Assembly (NCBI GenBank): GCA_903813345.2
Contig: CAIIXF020000004.1
Span: 29,639,986 to 29,703,985 of the forward strand
DNA: 64,000 nucleotides
Reading direction: 5' to 3'
From: Owenia fusiformis
Taxonomy: Eukaryota; Annelida; Polychaeta; Sabellida; Oweniidae
The notes below the pieces were generated by a model. It was not told the origin of the DNA. It made no database searches and saw nothing but the letters and a program-made list of their open reading frames with translations. Position numbers and translations under genes: made by a program. How positions within the stretch are numbered: the first letter of the stretch is position 1; the number at the start of each line of letters is the position of its first letter. Below, in pieces: positions 345-46,550 of this stretch.

Positions 345-3300
345 GGATTGGACCTACTTACTGCCAAAGGATTGTACCTACTTACTGCCACAGGATTGTA
401 CCTAATTATTGCCACAGGATTGTACCTACGTATAGCCACAGGATTGTACCTACGTATAGACACAGGATTGAACCTACTTATTGCCACAGGATTATACCTA
501 CTTACTTCCACAGGATTGTACCTACTTATTGCCAAAGGATTGTACCTATTCACTGCCACAGGATTGTACCTACACTGCAACAAGATTGTACCTACTTATT
601 GCCACAGGATTGTACCTACTCACTGCCACAGGATTGTACCTACTCACTGCCACAGGATTGTACCTACTCATTGCCACAGGATTGTACCTACTCATTGCCA
701 CAGGATTGTACCTACTCATTGCCACAGGATTGTACCTACTCATTGCCACAGGATTGTACCTACTCACTGCCACAGGATTGTACCTACTCACTGCCACAGG
801 ATTGTACCTACTCACTGCCACAGGATTGTACCTACTTACTGCCACATGATTGTACCTACTTACTGCCACATGATTGTACCTACTTATAGCCACATGATTG
901 TACCTAAGTATAGCCACTGGATTGTACCTAGGTATAGTCACAAGATTGTACCTACGTATAGCCACAGGATGGTACCTACATATAGCCACAGGATGGTACC
1001 TACGTATAGCCACAGGATTGTACCTACTTATTGCCACAGGATTGTACCTACTTATTGCCACAGGTTTGTACTTACGTATAGCCACAGGATTTTACCTATG
1101 TATAGCCACAGGATTGTACATATGTATAGCCACAGGATTGTACCTACTTATTGCCACAGGATTGTACCTACTTATTGCCACAGGTTTGTACTTACGTATA
1201 GCCACAGGATTGTACCTATGTATAGCCACAGGATTGTACCAATAAATAGTCACAGGATTGTACCTACGTATAGTCACAGGATTGTACCTACGTATAGTCA
1301 CAGGATTGTACCTGCGTATAGCCACAGGATTGTACCTATGTATAGCCACAGGATTGTACCTATGTATAGCCACAGGATTGTACCTATGTATAGCCACAGG
1401 ATTGTACCTACGTATAGCCAAAGGATTGAACCTATGTATAGCCATAGGATTGTACCTACGTATATCCACAGGATTGTACCTACGTATAGCCACAGGATGG
1501 TACCTACGTATAGCCACAGGATGGTACCTACGTATAGCCACAGGATGGTACCTACGTATAGCCACAGGATGGTACCTACCTATAGCCACAGGATGGTACC
1601 TACGTATAGCCACAGGATGGTACCTACATATAGCCACAGGATGGTACCTACGTATAGCCACAGGATGGTACCTACGTATAGCCACAGGATGGTACCTACG
1701 TATAGCCACAGGATTGTACCTACGTATAGCCACAGGATTGTACCTACGTATAGCCACAGGATGGTATCACGTATAGCCACAGGATGGTACCTACGTATAG
1801 CCACAGGATGGTACCTACGTATAGCCACAGGATGGTACCTACGTATAGCCACAGGATGGTACCTACGTATAGCCACAGGATGGTACCTACGTATAGCCAC
1901 AGGATGGTACCTACGTATAGCCACAGGATGGTACCTACGTATAGCCACAGGATGGTACCTACGTATAGCCACAGGATGGTACCTACGTATAGCCACAGGA
2001 TGGTACCTACGTAAAGCCACAGGATTGTACCTACGTATAGCCACAGGATTGAACCTACGTATAGCCACAGGATTGAACCTACGTATAGCCACAGGATTGA
2101 ACCTACGTATAGCCACAGGATTGAACCTACGTATAGCCACAGGATTGTATCTACGTATAGCCACAGGATTGTATCTACGTATAGCCACAGGATTGTATCT
2201 ACGTATAGCCACAGGATTGTATCTACGTATAGCCACAGGATTGTATCTACGTATAGCCACAGAATGGTACCTACGTATAGCCACAGGATTGTACCTACGT
2301 ATAGCCACAGGATTGTACCTACGTATAGCCACAGGATTGTACCTACGTATAGCCACAGGATTGTACCTACGTATAGCCACAGGATAGTATCTACTTATTG
2401 CCACAGGATTGTACCTACGTATAGCCACAGGATTGTACCTACGTATAGCCACAGGATTGTACCTACGTATAGCCACAGGATTGTACCTACGTATAGCCAC
2501 AGGATAGTATCTACTTATTGCCAAAGGATTGTACCTACGTATAGCCACAGGATTGTACCTACGTATAGCCACAGGATTGTACCTACGTATAGCCACAGGA
2601 TTGTACCTACGTATAGCCACAGGATTGTACCTACGTAAAGCCACAGGATTGTACCTACGTATAGCCACAGGATTGTACCTACGTATAGCCACAGGATTGT
2701 ACCTACGTATAGCCACAGGATTGTACCTACGTATAGCCACAGGATTGTACCTATGTATAGCCACAGGATTGTACCTACGTATAGCCACAGGATTGTACCT
2801 ACGTATAGCCACAGGATTGTACCTACGTATAGCCACAGGATTGTACCTACGTATAGCCACAGGATTGTACCTACGTATAGCCACAGGATTGTACCTACGT
2901 ATAGCCACAGGATTGTACCTACGTATAGCCACAGGATTGTACCTACGTATAGCCACAGGATTGTACCTACCGACTGCCGCATGATTGTACCTACCGACTG
3001 CCGCAGGATTGTACCTACCGACTGCCGCAGGATTGTACCTACCGACTGCCGCAGGATTGTACCTACCGACTGCCGCAGGATTGTACCTACCGACTGCCGC
3101 AGGATTGTACCTACCGACTGCCGCAGGATTGTACCTACCGACTGCCGCAGGATTGTACCTACCGACTGCCGCAGGATTGTACCTACCGACTGCCGCAGGA
3201 TTGTACCTACCGACTGCCGCAGGATTGTACCTACCGACTGCCGCAGGATTGTACCTACCGACTGCCGCAGGATTGTACCTACCGACTGCCGCAGGATTGT

Positions 3301-3979
3301 ACCTACCGACTGCCGCAGGATTGTACCTACCGACTGCCGCAGGATTGTACCTACCGACTGCCGCAGGATTGTACCTACCGACTGCCGCAGGATTGTACCT
3401 ACCGACTGCCGCAGGATTGTACCTACCGACTGCCGCAGGATTGTACCTACCGACTGCCGCAGGATTGTACCTACCGACTGCCGCAGGATGTACCTACCGA
3501 CTGCCGCAGGATTGTACCTACCGACTGCCGCAGGATTGTACCTACCGACTGCCGCAGGATTGTACCTACCGACTGCCGCAGGATTGTACCTACCGACTGC
3601 CGCAGGATTGTACCTACCGACTGCCGCAGGATTGTACCTACCGACTGCCGCAGGATTGTACCTACCGACTGTCGCAGGATTGTACCTACCGACTGCCGCA
3701 GGATTGTACCTACCGACTGCCGCAGGATTGTACCTACCGACTGCCGCAGGATTGTACCTACCGACTGCCGCAGGATTGTACCTACCGACTGCCGCAGGAT
3801 TGTACCTACCGACTGCCACAGGTTTGTACCTTCTTATTGCCACAAGATAGTATCTACTTACTGCCACAAGATAGTATCTACTTACTGCCACAAGATAGTA
3901 TCTACTTACTGCCACACGTTTGTACCTTTTTATTGCGACAAAATAGTACCGAATTATTGCCACAGGATTGTATCTATGT
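345..3979. repeat. 24-bp minisatellite, about 150 tandem units in sub-type blocks
   Basis: The unit is GGATTGTACCTACGTATAGC plus CACA, repeated head to tail. Blocks of sub-types follow each other. About 345-880 has CTTATTGCCACA or CTCACTGCCACA endings. About 885-2968 has CGTATAGCCACA endings, with inner runs of GGATGGTACC (about 1480-2020), GGATTGAACC (about 2048-2140) and GGATTGTATC (about 2145-2260). About 2969-3815 has CGACTGCCGCA endings and is nearly perfect over about 35 units. About 3816-3979 is a degenerate edge. Rare 23-bp units (near 1767 and 3488) change the phase. Because 24 is a multiple of 3 and the unit lacks stops in most frames, several very long frames appear on both strands. 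I regard these as artefacts. Degenerate edges and homogeneous inner blocks fit growth by unequal exchange. Confidence 0.98.
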
Positions 3980-18196: not shown

Positions 18197-21100
18197 ATGT
18201 GGACGATTGAACAAGGTGAACAAGATGGTTCTTTTTATATTGCGGTAAATGGCGCGAAAGCTGTCTCATACATTGATGGGAAAGAATTTGGCCAAATAAT
18301 AGAGGCATCATGTGGGAGAAGTGCCTCGGAAATTTACGTAAGTCACGTTCGGTTTTTCAATTCACTTTCGTTTTTTTTGTTTCTTGGCCTGATGTGTTTC
18401 TTGTCCCTATCTGTAATTTCCATATATTGTCCATTTCCCACCAATGTTTGGCGCATGTATTGATTTGCAATCCTTCTTATTCCAGCTAAAGGTAGAAAAC
18501 CAACATAAAGCTGTTAAATTTGACATACTACAGTGTCAAACGCCAGAACTAAAATCAAAAAATGCAAGTGAATTTGTGAAAAAACTGCAGACAAAAGGAA
18601 TAGCGAGAACGAGACAAAAGAAGAGGTCGTTACAGGAGATGCTTGAGCCCAATCCAAGTCTCAGTGGGGTGAGTTTACCACCAGCATCAGCATCTGCGCC
18701 ATCACTACAGATGCATGCCCTTGATAAATCCATATCGGAAAAAGAAATTGGTAATGCACTTATTAACTGTACTTAACCTAAATACTATAGGCTTACCTAG
18801 AACATTGCAATGTTATGATTGTCCAATAACTGTTTGTCTAAATTATACCTGTATACTAGTAATAATAATCTATGAAACAATTATTAAAAATGCCATTACA
18901 CAGTGTATAACCCAAACGCTCCTACATGTACGACGGAGCGTTACATTTACGCTGAAACGCTCCGGAGCGAAATAAAATGGCCGCTAATGAAGATTCTACT
19001 ATGACCGTAAGTATTGTTTCTCTTGTTTCTCTTACATATCATATGTCATGGTGAAATATTATGTACCATTCGATGAACAATACCGTGAGTAAAGATCTTA
19101 TTTATTCAACTTCTGGTGGTAAACTGTTATTTGCTTGATCAAAGCTCCGTAGTGTAGATCGAACGAATCTGAAGATGACGTTTTGACCACAAATTACGAA
19201 TTAAACTAGTATTTCTATGAAAACGTTAATCTTTCTGTTTAAGTAGTAGATCACAAACTCGTATATTCTCATTTCCTAAAATCCCAGTCCAAATCCATTA
19301 CTTGTTCTCAAGAAATCGCTTGTTTTCCTCAAAACGCTCCGTCGATTTAGACCACAATTTTAGAAACGCTCTTACCATTTTGTTTTGATATCATTTTCAG
19401 ATTATTAGAGAAGAGTTCCGAATCGAATCTATCTCTCAAAAACGTGTTGTACTTGTTAGGCAAATTGAAACATCTGAACCTGGTGGTGCTAAACGTGCAA
19501 CTAGCTGATTAAAGCCTATACATTAGATGATGTCATGCCTACATATGTGCTAAATCATAAAACTATAGAAAAAAACGAAAAGTTATATGTGAATTAATCT
19601 TTCTTCTATTGATGCCAAGGGGTATAATAGATCTTTTCTTTCTCTTCCTGAAAAGGAAAGGCAAGCTATATATTTCCTTAACTGATCTAGACTACCAGAG
19701 CGTTTCCAATTCACTGTGTTAACCAGATCGGAGCGTTTCTTGAATATGAGAATGTCATCATTTTTAAGACTGGATTTTCGGTCATCAAATCACTATTACG
19801 ATAATGTATGGTGCGTTGAAGCATTGGAATTTGACTTAAATATACGTTGGTGCTCTATTCTTGGCTCAACTAATCACATGTATCGACAAAAGGGGTTTTG
19901 ACCGGTAGAATGACAAATACGTTTTTGAATTTTGATAACTATACTGCTTCGTACAGCTCTTCCTAATTGCTTCAAACGTCAACAGCCAGCCACGTACAAC
20001 ATGAATATCACACCCATCGAATGGTATACTCGAAATATGTAACTCATACCTCTTATTCCCATTATTGGGGAAATTGTCAGACGGCTCATCATTCCCGCCA
20101 GACAGTTTTCCTACTCCGGAGCGTTTCTTTGTTTAATTTCAGTAATGAAACGCTCCGTCGTGCATGTAGGAGCGTTTGGGTTATACACCGTGCATTAGAT
20201 CTATGGCTTTTATTATGACATGAAACTTTCTATAAACCACCATTGCTTCTGCTAAAATGTTCACCTGTGTAATTTATAAAGGAATCTTCAACCTCCAACC
20301 AGATGACCTATAAGAACCACCCCCTAGCCTTTCCGTAAGGCCAATTTCGGAAAATCATGTTATGGTATGTTTTCTCTGTTTGAATGTACACTGGTGAGAG
20401 TCTGTTTGAATGCACACTGGTGGGAGAATCAGTACCTGTTTGAATATACACTGGTGAGAGTAGGTATCTGTTAGAATGCACACTGGTGAGAGTCTGTTTG
20501 GATGCACACTGGTGAGAGTACGTATCTGTTAGAATGCACACTGGTGAGAGTCTGTTTGAATATACACTGGTGTGAGAGTATGTACCTGTTTGAATGAACA
20601 CTGGTGGGAGAATCAGTCTGTTTGAATGTACACTGGTGTGAGGGTACGTACCTGTTTGAATGTACACTGGCGAGAGTCTGTTTGAATGTACACTGGTGAG
20701 AGTCTGTTTGAATTTACACTGGTGAGAGTACGTATCTGTTAGAATGCACACTGGTGAGAGTCTGTTTGGATGCACACTGGTGAGAGTACGTATCTGTTAG
20801 AATGCACACTGGTGAGAGTCTGTTTGAATATACACTGGTGTGAGAGTATGTACCTGTTTGAATGAACACTAGTGGGAGAATCAGTCTGTTTGAATGCACA
20901 CTGGTGTGAGGGTACGTACCTGTTTGATGTACACTGGTGAGAGTCTGTTTGAATGTACACTGGTAAGAGTCTGTTAGAATGCACACTGGTGAGAGTCTGT
21001 TTGGATGCACACTGGTGAGAGTACGTATCTGTTAGAATGCACACTGGTGAGAGTCTGTTTGAATATACACTGGTGTGAGAGTATGTACCTGTTTGAATGA

Positions 21101-22718
21101 ACACTGGTGGGAGAATCAGTCTGTTTGAATGCACACTGGTGTGAGGGTACGTACCTGTTTGAATGTACACTGGTGAGAGTCTGTTTGAATGTACACTGGT
21201 AAGAGTCTGTTAGAATGCACACTGGTGAGAGTCTGTTTGAATATACACTGGTGTGAGAGTACGTATCTGTTTGAATGTACACTGGTGAGAGTCTGTTTGA
21301 ATGAACACTGGTGTGAGGGTACGTACCTGTTTGAATGCACACTGGTGTGAGAGTACGTACCTGTTTGAATGCACACTGGTGAGAGTCTGTACATATTAGA
21401 ATGCACTCTGGTGTGAGAATCTGTACCTCTCAGAATGCACCCTGGTGTGAGAATCTGTACCTGTTGGAATGCGTTTCAAATATTAGAATGCACACTGGTG
21501 AGAGTGAGACTCTTTTTGAATGCACACTGGTGTGGGAGTCTGTACCTCTTAGAATGCACACTGGCACAGTGCTAATTTAAATTGCAAATGATTCTAGTAA
21601 TCTAGCTTTGAAGTTTGGTATACTTTTTTGTGGACGCCCTATATTATTCAAATGGAGCTTTCAGCTTTCCAACGGTGTATCAGAACCTCAGTGCTTAGCG
21701 TACTTAGAGGCTCTATTTTGCAAAGGTACACCAGAATAATGGAATAACACACGATTTCTTTCAGTCGTTTGCAATACAAAACTCCTTGTCAAAACGTTTC
21801 ATCTACAACTTTAATCTGTTATCTTTGTATCCTTTCTTAAAGCTTCATTGACATGTTGAGCATGTACATGTACCCTTTATTTGTAGGACATCGTTGAGAG
21901 ATTACATCAAGTCCCATTGAGTCCTACAACAATCATTCCTGTTTTAGCAACTAAGATGATGAATAATGGGTCTGAAGACAAAGAGGATATAGCGATGCAA
22001 TTGTTATCAAAGCCCGAAAACTTTCACTTTGTGGCCCTCGGTGGCAATCATTTGAGACGAGCCATTGTACATATACAATCAAGTTTCAAAGATGGCTATG
22101 AGCAACTGACGTAAGTATGAACAGATTCAATTAAATTCATAAAATGATCTTTTACTTACATTCGATGAGTTAAAAAATAATAGCTTGGTAAGTGAAAAAA
22201 TATGCATTCTGAATAATTATATTTATTGATTATGAAATATTAAATTTTGTATTGTGAAATCATCACAAAATAGCAATTTCGTTAATGTTAATTTCTAATA
22301 TAATGTTTATAATTGCTATCTATAACATCTATCCACATATCTCTAGGGTATTACGATGCAGAGTGTTCATGGACTTAACCGAAATGGAAGCTAGAAGAGT
22401 GGCGAATTCCCAAAACAACAGTCAAATTTCACTGCCCGTCACATTTCAGGTTCGGGTTTTTAAAGACTGAATTGTTATCACTATGAATAATTGATTCATC
22501 AAGAAACCACACTTCTATTTGTGATTTTATTTCAAATATGATATTACTTTGACAGTATAATTTATTATTCAATGATGTCAAGATTATTTCTAGTCGCGAC
22601 TATAGTATATTATACAACTATATATCTATTTCAGGACAGAGCCAGGCAGGCGCAGTATTTGTTCAATAATGGGGGTGCACGTCAGCTGAGGCTGGTGCAG
22701 TCTCTAGGTTTGCCAGAT
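18197..22718 (+). CDS. Putative host gene: ParB/sulfiredoxin-fold-like protein, five exons
   Basis: Exons 18197-18337, 18486-18668, 21887-22110, 22347-22449 and 22635-22718 all have GT/AG borders and join in phase, giving 245 residues with no stop. Residues about 100-227 follow the ParB-domain layout: LEPNP, a helix (DIVERLHQV), then FVALGGNHLRRAI (residues 157-168), like the ParB G-x-H-R-x-x-A motif. A strand RCRVFM and EARRVANSQNN (197-207) follow, like the conserved EAxxLAxxEN helix. The N-terminal 90 residues (MWTIEQGEQDGSFYIAVNGA) are of unknown type. A lysine-rich stretch near residues 85-95 could be a nuclear signal. If the last donor is not used, translation stops 12 codons later at 22757; more exons may follow. 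Intron 2 is 3.2 kb and hosts a transposon and a minisatellite. ParB folds bind DNA or nucleotides; the actual role here is unknown. A domesticated or transposon-borne gene is an alternative. Confidence 0.6.
18899..20192. mobile_element. DNA transposon with CACAGTG/CACGGTG ends and 5-bp CATTA duplication (Transib/RAG-like candidate)
   Basis: The left end begins CACAGTGTATAACCCAAACG. The right end, read inwards, begins CACGGTGTATAACCCAAACG. About 49 bp match with three mismatches. Both sides are flanked by CATTA (18894-18898 and 20193-20197). A CAC start with a 5-bp duplication is typical of Transib elements, relatives of RAG transposons, and the left heptamer equals the consensus V(D)J heptamer. 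No ACAAAAACC nonamer is seen at a 12- or 23-bp spacing, and no RAG1-like core is encoded in the 1294 bp, so this would be a non-autonomous member. CMC-type (CACTA) elements also start with CAC but make shorter duplications. It lies in intron 2 of the ParB-like gene. Confidence 0.65.
18977..19508 (+). CDS. Small two-exon frame inside the CACAGTG-ended transposon
   Basis: Exon 18977-19006 (MAANEDSTMT) ends at GTAAGT. Exon 19401-19508 follows TTTTCAG and reads IIREEFRIESISQKRVVLVR, then QIETSEPGGAKRATS and a stop. They join in phase 0 to give 45 residues. Downstream, other frames still look coding (LIKAYTLDDVMPTYVLN, then SLSSIDAKGYNRSFLSLPEK), so the gene was probably longer and is now shifted in at least two places. 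I do not recognise the family. It may be a captured exon or an accessory protein of the element. Confidence 0.35.
20370..21570. repeat. Minisatellite with higher-order repeats, in intron 2 of the ParB-like gene
   Basis: The basic unit of about 26-40 bp contains CTGTTTGAATGCACACTGG followed by TGAGAG, with insertions such as TACGTACCTGTTTG. A larger block recurs: GTCTGTTTGGATGCACACTG occurs at about 20493, 20759 and 20996 (periods about 266 and 237 bp). The unit encodes HTGE in one frame but has neither the length nor the cysteines of a zinc finger. Long minus-strand frames here are repeat artefacts. Confidence 0.9.
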
Positions 22719-32586: not shown

Positions 32587-32841
32587 CCCTTCTCGAACGG
32601 CACGCGTATATATACGCGTTTGGTTCATGACGTCAACAACATGTGTACATAAGTCATAGTATCGAAATAAACTATACAATACTTACAAAAATGCATTCTT
32701 GTGAACTTCTTTTTTCAAATGACATCGATCTGAGGTGATATAAATGCCCATTAGCGGCATAATACATGAAAATCAAAAAAAAATTAAAAAGTTTTAAAAT
32801 TTTGTAAACCGGAACAGGAAGTTGAAATGTAGGTCACAACA

Positions 32842-35800
32842 ATGGCGGCGGAAAATATCAGGCCTGGATTATTTGAGGTTTTCCTTGATGCAGACAGCGA
32901 TTTTGACTCAGATAGTGACACTAGTGATGAAGAAAATAATATGGATAATGATTATGTTGCCCCGGAGGCTCCTCGGGATTGGCAGTCAACAAATTCAGTG
33001 CGTTTTGAACGTTTTTGCAAAAATTATCCTTTTACTCCAGGTTTGAAAACTGATCGGCCTCTAACAGAGATTATGGCTAAATTTATGGAGATTGAAGAGC
33101 CGTCAGTGAAAGATTATGTGGATTTGTATCTTACAAATGAAATTTTGAAGGATATTAAAGAAGAGACCAACCGCTATGCACAACAATATATGGATATCCA
33201 TCCAAATATGCCTGAGAAAGGCAGGCTTGTGAAATGGAAACCTGTAACAGTAGAAGAAATACAGGTATTTATATGCATGATAATATCTATGGGAATTGTA
33301 GTTCAGGATGATCTTAATGATTACTGGACAACTAATCCAGTTATTACTACACCATTCTTTGGACAACTCATGTCACGAGATCGTTTTATGAATATTTTGA
33401 GCTTCTTGCATTTAGTTAATAATGCAACCCTAGATGGTAATGTTAGAGGCAGGGCTGGTTATAATCCATTAGCCAAACTGGGAACATTTTATCCTAAGAT
33501 TGTGGCCTCATTTGGAGAAGTTTACACACCACATCAGGATGTCTCACTTGACGAAGAAGTTATTAAATTTAAGGGGATTACGCATCTAAAAGTTTACAGT
33601 CCGGATAAACCAGACAAGTACGGATTGCGTGGCTACAAACTCTGTGATGCCAAAAATGGATATTGTTTGACTCATGAAATTTATGGAGGGAAGAATTTGC
33701 AGCCTGTTGAGCATGGCTTAACAGTGGATCTTGTGATGAGATTGATGGATCCATATTTGAATAATGGACATCGCATTACTGTTGACAACTATTATACGTC
33801 ACCAACACTATTTACCATGCTATTAGAAAACCAAACTGGTGCAACTGGAACCTTGCGTTTAAATCGCCAGGGAGTGCCACAGCAGTTGAAGGATCAACGG
33901 TTGTTAGAAAAAGGTATTACACTGCTATTGTAGAGAAATGTCAGTATACTGTAAGCCTCCTTTGTATGACACGACATACCTTGACAGATTGCATCATGTT
34001 GAGTTTATGATTGGGTACTGTATATGATCATTGAGTTTACACGTAAGATGATCACAAGAATTAGATCAACTGTTACACCATATTCAATATGTTGCAAATT
34101 CTGAAACTTTTTAGTATGTCTAATATTTATTATATTTTATTTCAGGTGACACATTCTGCATGACGAATGGCAAATTATTTGCTATGAAGTTTAAAGATAG
34201 GAAGGAGGTGACAATCCTTTCATCAGTTTATGACGACAGAATGGTAGACACCGGAAAGCGGGGGAGAGATGGGCAAGACATTAGAAAGCAGGAAATCATC
34301 CACAAGTATAACCAATGTATGGGTGGCGTGGATCTTAGTGACCAATTGGTGAAATCTCTGCACTTTGAAAGAAGAAGCTTGAAATGGTGGAAAAAAGTTT
34401 TCTTCTGGATGATCTGTAAGTATACTGGTATTTTAACTTAAACTTTTGGTTACTGTACTCCCACTAATTTTCGACGCTATTATATTTCGCGTTTTGGTCA
34501 TTTTGAAATTTTGCGGCTATTATATTTTGCTATTTTTCAGTTTTTTGAAATTTCGCGGCTATTAATTTCCGCGGATTTGTCATACAAGATCACTCTTCCG
34601 ACTTCAATATCAGCCATGGTTGTTCCTGCGCCCGATGATTTTGGCTTCTTGTTAAGCCATTTCGTAAGAAATTGAAATTCCCGGGAATTTCCTTGGAATT
34701 TTGCGACTATTAAATTTCGCGAATTAGAATTGCTGAAATTTCGCGACTATTATATTTCGCGAATTTTCCAAAACTCGCAAAAAGCGTGAAATATAGTAGC
34801 GCACGAAAATTACCGGGAGTTCAGTAATTGAAATAATTAATTAGAATAGGATACTAGTATGCGGGGCATGGTTTCATGTGGAATTTTACATTTTTGTTAT
34901 TTCATTAAAATTGATGGAGCGATTTTGTTCATATTTTTTCTATATACATTCCTGAAAATATGCCACACGGCATCTAGACCTTTTGATGGATAGACGGCCA
35001 TCTTGAAAAATGGCTGTCATGGTTGCTTCATTTCACATTCTTTGCTATAACTTAAAAAGTAATGAAGGGATTTCGTATATATTTTATATATACATGTACA
35101 TTCTTGAAACCACTCCACATGAACCCATACCCTGTCAGGTGATATGGTGGCCATCTTGAAAAATGGTTGGGTCATTTTACATTTTTTGCTATAACTTTAT
35201 AATGGTACGATTTTGTTCCTATTTTATATATACATTCTTTAAACCACTCCGCATGAACCCATAGCCTCCCAAGTCATATGGTGACCAACTTGAAACATGG
35301 CTGCCATTGTTATGTTATTTTTCCTTTTACATAACTATTTACATATAAGTAATTTAGCGATTATGTTTATAGTTTAGAAATAAAAACTTTGAACCATGGC
35401 CTTTTTGAATTTATGACCTTTTGATCAACATGGTGGCCATCTTGGAAAATGATGGGCACATAGTTGCGTAATTTTACAATTATGTTGAGACTTCATGAAA
35501 ACATGTAACAAAACGCACGATCTGTTGACCATTACGGTGGATTTTTGAAAAGATTTGTCATTTGCAGAAGTGGTTTCGTTGGTATCAAATGCAATGATAT
35601 TTTGAAGTAATATGCACCTTGATGTATATTGTGGTGTTTTAAAGAAATGAACACTGGCAATTATTTAACGAGATATTCTATGGGATTTGCTATGCCGTGG
35701 CATTGCAGTTTTCCAGTTTCAACAGTGTACAATAAGTAATGCTAATTTCATTTACTTTTGTTTTAGCTCTGGTCTTGGTGAATGCGTATACTATAGCAAA

Positions 35801-42276: not shown

Positions 42277-43364
42277 TATTAAAAACAAATGAAACATTGA
42301 CTTATTGAATTCAATGCACCAATAAATCTTCTTGAAACATCCCTGAATGACAAAATGGTATTGTATTATGATGTCATAGTGTTTCTGACATACTTGAAGG
42401 AACAATTGACACATTTGAACCAGAGACACAGCTTCAACAATTTGTTAAAATGGCAGCCATTTTGGCAACAGATTCGAAATCATTGCGGGCAATAGCGCAA
42501 TATCATGCTGCGCAAGGGTTAAAACCCACACAAACTCATGCAAGTATGGCAAAAGTGTACAAACAATATACACCAAGTACACCAACCCTATGGAGATGGT
42601 AGAGGAAGCACAAGACTGGGGACCTTAGCCTGGATGATGCTCCGAGAAGTGCAAGGCCAAAAACCCACAAGTCGCTGATTGAGAAAATTGCTCAGAGTGT
42701 AAAGGTAGAAAGGAGGAGAACTTGTAGAGATCTTGCACTTGAGTTTGATGCTAGTAAAAGTACTGTCCACAATATACTGAAGAAGAATCTGGGACTGGCG
42801 AAGGTAGCACCAAGATTTATACCCCATATCCTCACAGATGACCAAAAACTTCAGCGGGTGCAGCTAAGCCAGGAATTTCTTGTACGGTATGACGCAGAAG
42901 GGATGGGGTTCCTGTCAAAAATTGTCACTACTGATGAGACTTGGTCACACTACTATGAGCCAGAAACTAAGCTGCATTCTATGGTATGGAAGCACCCTTC
43001 TTCCCCTCAGCCAACAAAATGCAGAAGGATGAAGTCCTTGCAGAAAGTTATGCTAATTGTCTTTTGGGACTGTGAAGGGGTGATCCTTTGCCGCTATGTG
43101 CCGCATGGTCAAACAGTCAACAAGGTGTATTATTCCAAGGTAATTGACAGTGGTACCTGTTACACTGCTGGGTTGAGTCTAACGAAGCATTTTTGTAACG
43201 ACGGTTGACGAAAAAATTGTGTCCACACTGGCTTTATCCAACGGAGCAATTCCCTGACGAAGCAATTATTTGGTGTTACACTGCACTTAAAATGCTTAGT
43301 TGCGCATGCACATTGCATTATCAGCCCCCCCCCCAACACTGTCTTCCAATTCAGTATAACCAAC

Positions 43365-45204: not shown

Positions 45205-46550
45205 GATTAGTTTCAATGATCAGAAGACAGGAAGCTGGAGATATACACGCACGCGCAAATCCCCAACTAAGCATTTTCTAACGAAGCTACCTGTTACACT
45301 GGCAAAAAAAGCTTCGTTGGGAGCTAACCTTCGTTGAATTTTCTACTCAATTGCTTCGTTATCAACTAAGCTTTTCTAACGAAGGCGGAGGTGTTACACT
45401 GGCCCAAAATTGCTTCGTTACGAAGCTTTTTGTCAAATTGCTTCGTAACGAAGCATTTCAACTGGACTGTGGAACAGGGGTCAGTTTTTACTTTAATGGC
45501 TTATCATATTAGCTTACTTTATATTAAATGTGTATTAAATTTTGTGTAAACCTTTTATAATATTATATCTCAAGGTGCTGAGAAGGGATTTAATGAGAGC
45601 CCTTCAAAAGAAGAGAAGCAGCAAGCTGTCTGAGGGTGTAATATTCCACCAGGACAATGCACCTGCACACGCCTCACAGAAGGTTCAGGAACTTCTTGCG
45701 ACCCTTGGCTTCGAGGTTCTCAAGCATGCACCTTACTCTCCTGACAATGCCCCTAGTGACTTCTATCTCTTCAAAGGTTTAAAGGACACTCTGAGGGGAA
45801 CACGGTTTGATGATTTTGATGATCTGAAGAATGCAGTCAAAGCACACTTCATGAAACTGTCCCGAGAGGATTTCACTGGAGCCTACCTAGACTGGGTGAA
45901 AAGACACCAGAAATGTGTCCTTCACCACAGAGAATATTTTGAAAAATTATGAATGTAATGGGACTATGTGCAATAATATTCATTAAGGATGTGCTCCTTT
46001 AATAAAATAATAATGTTGATTATTATGTAACCTCAAAAATGAATAAACCATTTGATGCATAGGATGTGCTCCTAAATTCAAAATTTTGGATAATTTTTTC
46101 TTTATTTTAGCCTCCTTAAAAGTGCCCCGATGGGGCAAAACTCATACTCTTGCAATGTTCATAAAGATAAAACCATGCAGTGTAATTCCTTCAAACTTTA
46201 CAAAGTGAATAACAAATGTTTAAAGATCATCCATGTGAAATATGATGCTAAAAGAATAAAAATTGATGAAATGAGAGCAAAAATTTCAAGACTTTTTGGA
46301 CAACCCTCGTATATAAGGGAACTAGTTAGCCCCATTGGCTCCCATACAAATGCTCTGCTAGGTATATAATACATGTACTATTAATATCATATGGCTGATA
46401 ATGCCCATAGTTAAACCACTACAAGTGCTCATGTACTGAATATGTAAAATGAAATAAAATCTATGAATAAAAATAACCATTCAAAAAGTCATCATTCATA
46501 ATATTACTTTGGCACAACCATAACCTGTTTTGATTTCACCATATAGTTAC

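Follow-up and report, generated by a model that had tools for sequence, protein, structure and literature searches.

A non-autonomous cut-and-paste transposon family with CAC ends and 5-bp target-site duplications in Owenia fusiformis, possibly moved by a Transib/RAG1-branch transposase

The 64,000-nucleotide stretch of Owenia fusiformis DNA analyzed here (the window) contains a 1.3-kb element whose left end reads CACAGTG, the heptamer of V(D)J recombination signal sequences (RSS), which raises the question of whether the enzyme that moved it belongs to the Transib/RAG group. A preliminary description gave it inverted ends of about 49 bp, CACAGTG at the left, CACGGTG at the right and CATTA on both sides, and each of these features was confirmed. 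The element spans window positions 18899–20192 on the forward strand (1294 bp) between two 5-bp target-site duplications, CATTA, at 18894–18898 and 20193–20197. Its 49-bp terminal inverted repeats (TIRs) lie at 18899–18947 (+), beginning with CACAGTG where the family has CACGGTG, and at 20144–20192 (−), beginning with CACGGTG when read inward; the two arms are complementary at 46 of 49 positions. It has no long open reading frame, and the element is non-coding and non-autonomous, as had been proposed. It does contain two exon-like stretches on the + strand, one an ATG with ten codons followed by GTAAGT (18977–19006), the other 35 codons and a TGA after TTTTCAG (19401–19508). In a further copy, on C9, the second stretch closes at the same stop, and the donor is GTCAGT. 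The exon-like peptides had no match in Pfam, and their best match in PDB had an E value of 1.4 and was disregarded; these stretches may be remnants of a parental gene or may be due to chance.

The genome assembly (525 contigs totaling 498 Mb, with the longest ones reaching tens of megabases) was searched for other copies. A 24-bp end pattern occurred 412 times (208 + 204, exact ends only), while the reversed-pattern control did not occur at all. These exact ends are equivalent to about 200 elements, and the family numbers about 200 copies or more. In a DNA search, the best 40 of 632 candidates, the window copy among them, were all near full length and 96–100% identical. Given these near-full-length copies, and 412 ends against none in the control, the inverted-end structure is not a chance arrangement. 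The best-scoring 40 copies diverge by 0.39–2.40% from their own majority sequence (window copy, 0.93%), a spread that is biased low because these are the copies most similar to the window copy. In further copies, the stretches compared with it are for the most part 95–99% identical. The family is fairly young.

Pairing 364 of the 412 exact ends yielded 132 pairs and left 100 ends unpaired. Most pairs (116) measured 1230–1340 bp; 8 were shorter and 8 longer. Five of the 8 short pairs were read (1061, 1010, 670, 533 and 60 bp), and all had intact ends and 5-bp duplications; thus, each started as a normal insertion, and the deletions may have happened afterwards. The smallest, at 1466–1525 of locus L101, is a 60-bp element consisting of almost nothing but its two ends, with GAGTT on either side. 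A decayed 0.2-kb relative (L082, 4820–5024, −) has CACTGTG and CAAGGTG ends and flanks without a matching 5 bp. It has the family’s TIR and a GAAATAAAATG stretch in common, an indication that the group has been present in this genome for longer than the young copies show.

Target-site duplications were scored in 73 distinct elements, defined by having both ends within 3 substitutions of the 20-bp consensus, 400–5200 bp apart, and readable flanks. An exact 5-bp duplication was found in 68 of the 73. Two of the remaining five were one base off, and three differed at 3–4 of the 5 bases; no copy had a duplication of 2, 3 or 4 bp. An earlier set of 40 copies gave 37 exact 5-bp duplications. The preliminary description had called for consistent 5-bp duplications, and these are what we found; the two signs it had named against its own reading, 2–4-bp duplications and an autonomous copy coding for a CACTA/Mirage/Chapaev (CMC) or other transposase, appeared neither in the 73 copies nor among the end pairs checked, respectively.

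The sites chosen for insertion are AT-rich. GC content was 20% in the 68 duplications versus 36% in the window, and the symmetrized target is C-NWWWN-G, with C directly before the duplication in 48% of cases, G directly after it in 48%, A or T at duplication positions 2 and 4 in 90%, and A or T at position 3 in 78%. Among Transib elements, 5-bp duplications are reported at 532 of 533 hopper and 7 of 7 transib2 insertions (PMC3276498), and for Hztransib as well (PMC1852546). The hopper/transib2 target motif is given as CCANTGG, and hopper’s target as GC-rich (PMC3276498). The outer C and G of that motif agree with the family’s target, but the AT-rich core does not. GC-biased targets have been reported for ProtoRAG, Transib and RAG; for Transib this is a tendency rather than a strict rule, and the family does not follow it. 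Of all the results, the AT-rich target weighs most heavily against classing the family simply as Transib.

The family heptamer is CACGGTG. It is present at 136 of the 146 ends of the 73 distinct copies, it starts the 40-copy majority sequence, and the family has CACGGTGTATAACCC ends. CACAGTG occurs once among these 146 ends, at the left end of the window element, and is a copy-level variant. Among the end places listed, we counted by eye five CACAGTG (window included) and three CACTGTG. A change from CACGGTG to CACAGTG is a CpG-type transition, so that the exact V(D)J heptamer in the window copy would most simply reflect decay. Hence, of the V(D)J-like heptamer first described, the CAC ends hold for the family, while the exact CACAGTG does not. 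CACGGTG is also the heptamer of Hztransib. RAG1/2 itself is reported to rank CACGGTG among its best heptamers when AT or TT follows (PMC9723617); in the element, the heptamer is followed by TA. The RSS nonamer ACAAAAACC had a best match of 3 of 9 positions at spacers of 11–13 and 22–24 bp, with none at 12 or 23 bp. Thus, the family differs from an RSS both in its heptamer and in lacking the layout with a 12- or 23-bp spacer.

Inside its ends, the element holds nine exact copies of AAACGCTC/GAGCGTTT in both orientations: each half has four that point inward, and the ninth lies the other way round close to the right end. The left half of this mirrored array (18914–19371, +) has AAACGCTC at 18914, 18955, 19332 and 19364, plus an inverted copy with one mismatch, GAGCGTTA, at 18936. 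The right half (19698–20177, −) has GAGCGTTT at 19698, 19731, 20119 and 20170, and the inverted copy, AAACGCTC, at 20148. In 500 mononucleotide shuffles of the element the motif occurred 0.04 times on average and at most twice; the remainder of the window contains 1. The GGAGCGTTT array may be a set of transposase-binding sites. It counts against a Transib/RAG1-branch driver that extended arrays of this mirrored kind next to the ends are found more typically in CACTA, hAT or P elements. In other respects the family resembles MITE-like elements, with many copies of uniform length, intact inverted ends and duplications, and no long open reading frame, although MITEs are typically shorter than 1.3 kb.

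It had also been proposed that a longer copy might encode a Transib/RAG1-like core between the same ends; the end pairs that were checked contained no such copy, and uncalibrated protein searches came back empty. Six of the 8 longer pairs (from the 364 of 412 ends) were examined, and no coding copy was found in them. The 2.08-kb and 2.79-kb pairs are insertions into the element, as are a 5.09-kb pair (C8), with the insertion near element position 1060, and a 5.07-kb pair (C9), with a 9-bp duplication GATTTAAGC. Pairs of 3.19 kb (C6) and 3.32 kb (C7) were each sampled by two inner pieces, one of which proved to be ordinary element sequence, and this partial reading is consistent with nested insertions. 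The other two pairs measure 1.51 kb (C6:36333181) and 12.7 kb (C3:20306981), the latter perhaps two separate elements. Eleven unpaired ends were read: 8 belong to ordinary elements (one with an internal gap), and the others are L082, described above, L086 and L090, where similarity ends after 207 and 148 bp, respectively, and a second end was not seen. Beside the 207-bp truncated copy in L086 lies an unbroken 524-amino-acid frame (578–2152, −) that looks glycosyltransferase-like by eye. The insertion in the C9 copy (C9:37108000–37113200; L103, L109) is roughly 3.8 kb long, with inverted ends starting GGTAGTTTAGA, and we take it to be Mutator-like on account of its 9-bp duplication; the insertion in L079 also has a 9-bp overlap.

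The RAG1 profile PF12940 gave no match in the genome at E ≤ 1, in a search that was uncalibrated and to which 14 control genomes were silent too. Six-frame searches of the genome with an Hztransib segment and with a generic Transib segment, both uncalibrated on a Transib-bearing genome, gave none at E ≤ 10; the generic segment is a sound query, since it matches Hztransib at 9.4e-75. With tblastn, the Hztransib segment had no match at E ≤ 1 in the window or the collected copy loci. Because these searches were uncalibrated, they do not establish that the transposase is absent. Autonomous Transibs are reported to occur usually as one or few copies and to be missing from most animal genomes (PMC4411706), and a missing driver is therefore unsurprising.

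There is hardly any doubt that the family is non-autonomous and moves by cut-and-paste. CAC..GTG ends, taken together with 5-bp duplications, suggest a DDE transposase of the Transib/RAG1 branch acting in trans, to which we assign a probability of about 0.5, no higher because an undescribed or hAT5-like lineage is favored by the subterminal arrays and by the AT-rich target. The transposase would be encoded elsewhere, now or formerly; its supply and its class are our inference. It would recognize the inverted ends, possibly together with the subterminal GGAGCGTTT sites, cut beside CAC, and join both ends to the target with a 5-bp stagger, leaving 5-bp duplications at C-NWWWN-G. Hairpin formation during excision is known for RAG and also for Hztransib. 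The family shares with Transib (Hztransib, hopper, transib2) the CAC terminus, 5-bp duplications and symmetric inverted ends; it differs in its AT-rich target core and long subterminal arrays, and no transposase was found in the uncalibrated searches. Less probably, these differences mark a branch of Transib/RAG1-type transposases with an AT-rich C-NWWWN-G target and mirrored GGAGCGTTT arrays; its autonomous element would then be scarce in this genome, highly divergent or already lost from it.

The driver might instead come from an undescribed or unrelated lineage that uses CAC ends and 5-bp duplications, either outside Transib/RAG or hAT5-like. An AT-rich target and mirrored subterminal arrays would suit such a lineage, as would the empty, though uncalibrated, RAG1 and Transib searches. 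CAC with a strict 5 bp is otherwise the Transib/RAG signature, and hAT ends usually start with CAR, not CAC, both of which count against this alternative. On the other side, hAT families with 5-bp duplications are on record (PMC12730594), and we hold a driver from such a lineage to be a real, if tentative, possibility.

The kinship with Transib and RAG proposed for this element is supported in part, by the CAC ends and 5-bp duplications; the missing nonamer, the AT-rich target and the poor fit to RAG1L-RAG2L (RAGL) TIRs weaken it. RAGL transposons like those in oysters and a ribbon worm are reported to have TIRs starting with CAC and 5-bp duplications, and a few non-autonomous RAGL copies have been published, e.g. 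in Pinctada imbricata (PMC7204232). The family shares these ends and duplications with RAGL and ProtoRAG but is without their GC bias, and no RAG1L or RAG2L was found in the uncalibrated searches. If it were a RAGL derivative, its TIR should resemble the protostome consensus CACTWMCAAACKTYKBB, which applies to protostome hosts only (PMC7204232); the family has G or A at position 4, and AAA at 16–18 rather than 8–10. Its copy number is also far above that of the non-autonomous RAGL cases reported, and the PF12940 search, again uncalibrated, was empty, leaving a RAGL derivative unlikely. A CMC element would account for the subterminal repeats, which resemble those of CACTA elements. CMC duplications measure 2–4 bp, a length shown by none of the 73 copies, 68 of which have exactly 5 bp, and duplication length thus strongly disfavors this origin. 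We consider it very improbable, even though CAC..GTG ends also occur in fungal EnSpm (PMC12730594). Elsewhere in the wider group, the same source gives duplications of 3 bp for fungal EnSpm, 2–3 bp for Plavaka and TA for ESTA; Plavaka was dropped as a candidate on its 2–3 bp.

If a Transib/RAG-branch transposase is indeed the driver, the family offers about 200 exactly bounded insertions with which to define end recognition and target choice, and would inform the group of enzymes ancestral to V(D)J recombination; its AT-rich target would mean that not every member of the Transib/RAG group prefers GC. If it is not, this is an ordinary non-autonomous family, and CAC ends with 5-bp duplications are insufficient to claim a RAG relative. 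Searches of the PMC literature showed no earlier description of the family.

The remainder of the window contains several other repeats and coding pieces. At 345–3976, a 24-bp unit is repeated about 151 times in a large tandem array (94% matches) with several frames open, and tandem arrays with a unit of roughly 26–34 bp, around TGTTTGAATGCACACTGGTGAGAG, occupy 20375–21564, beginning about 180 bp to the right of the element. At 32833–33933 (+), a 366-amino-acid open frame matches DDE_Tnp_1_7 (E = 4e-61), presumably a piggyBac-type transposase. Two pieces at 42603–43205 and 45539–45949 (+) resemble a split Tc1/mariner-type transposase, with Transposase_1 over its cut-off and DDE_3 slightly under its own.
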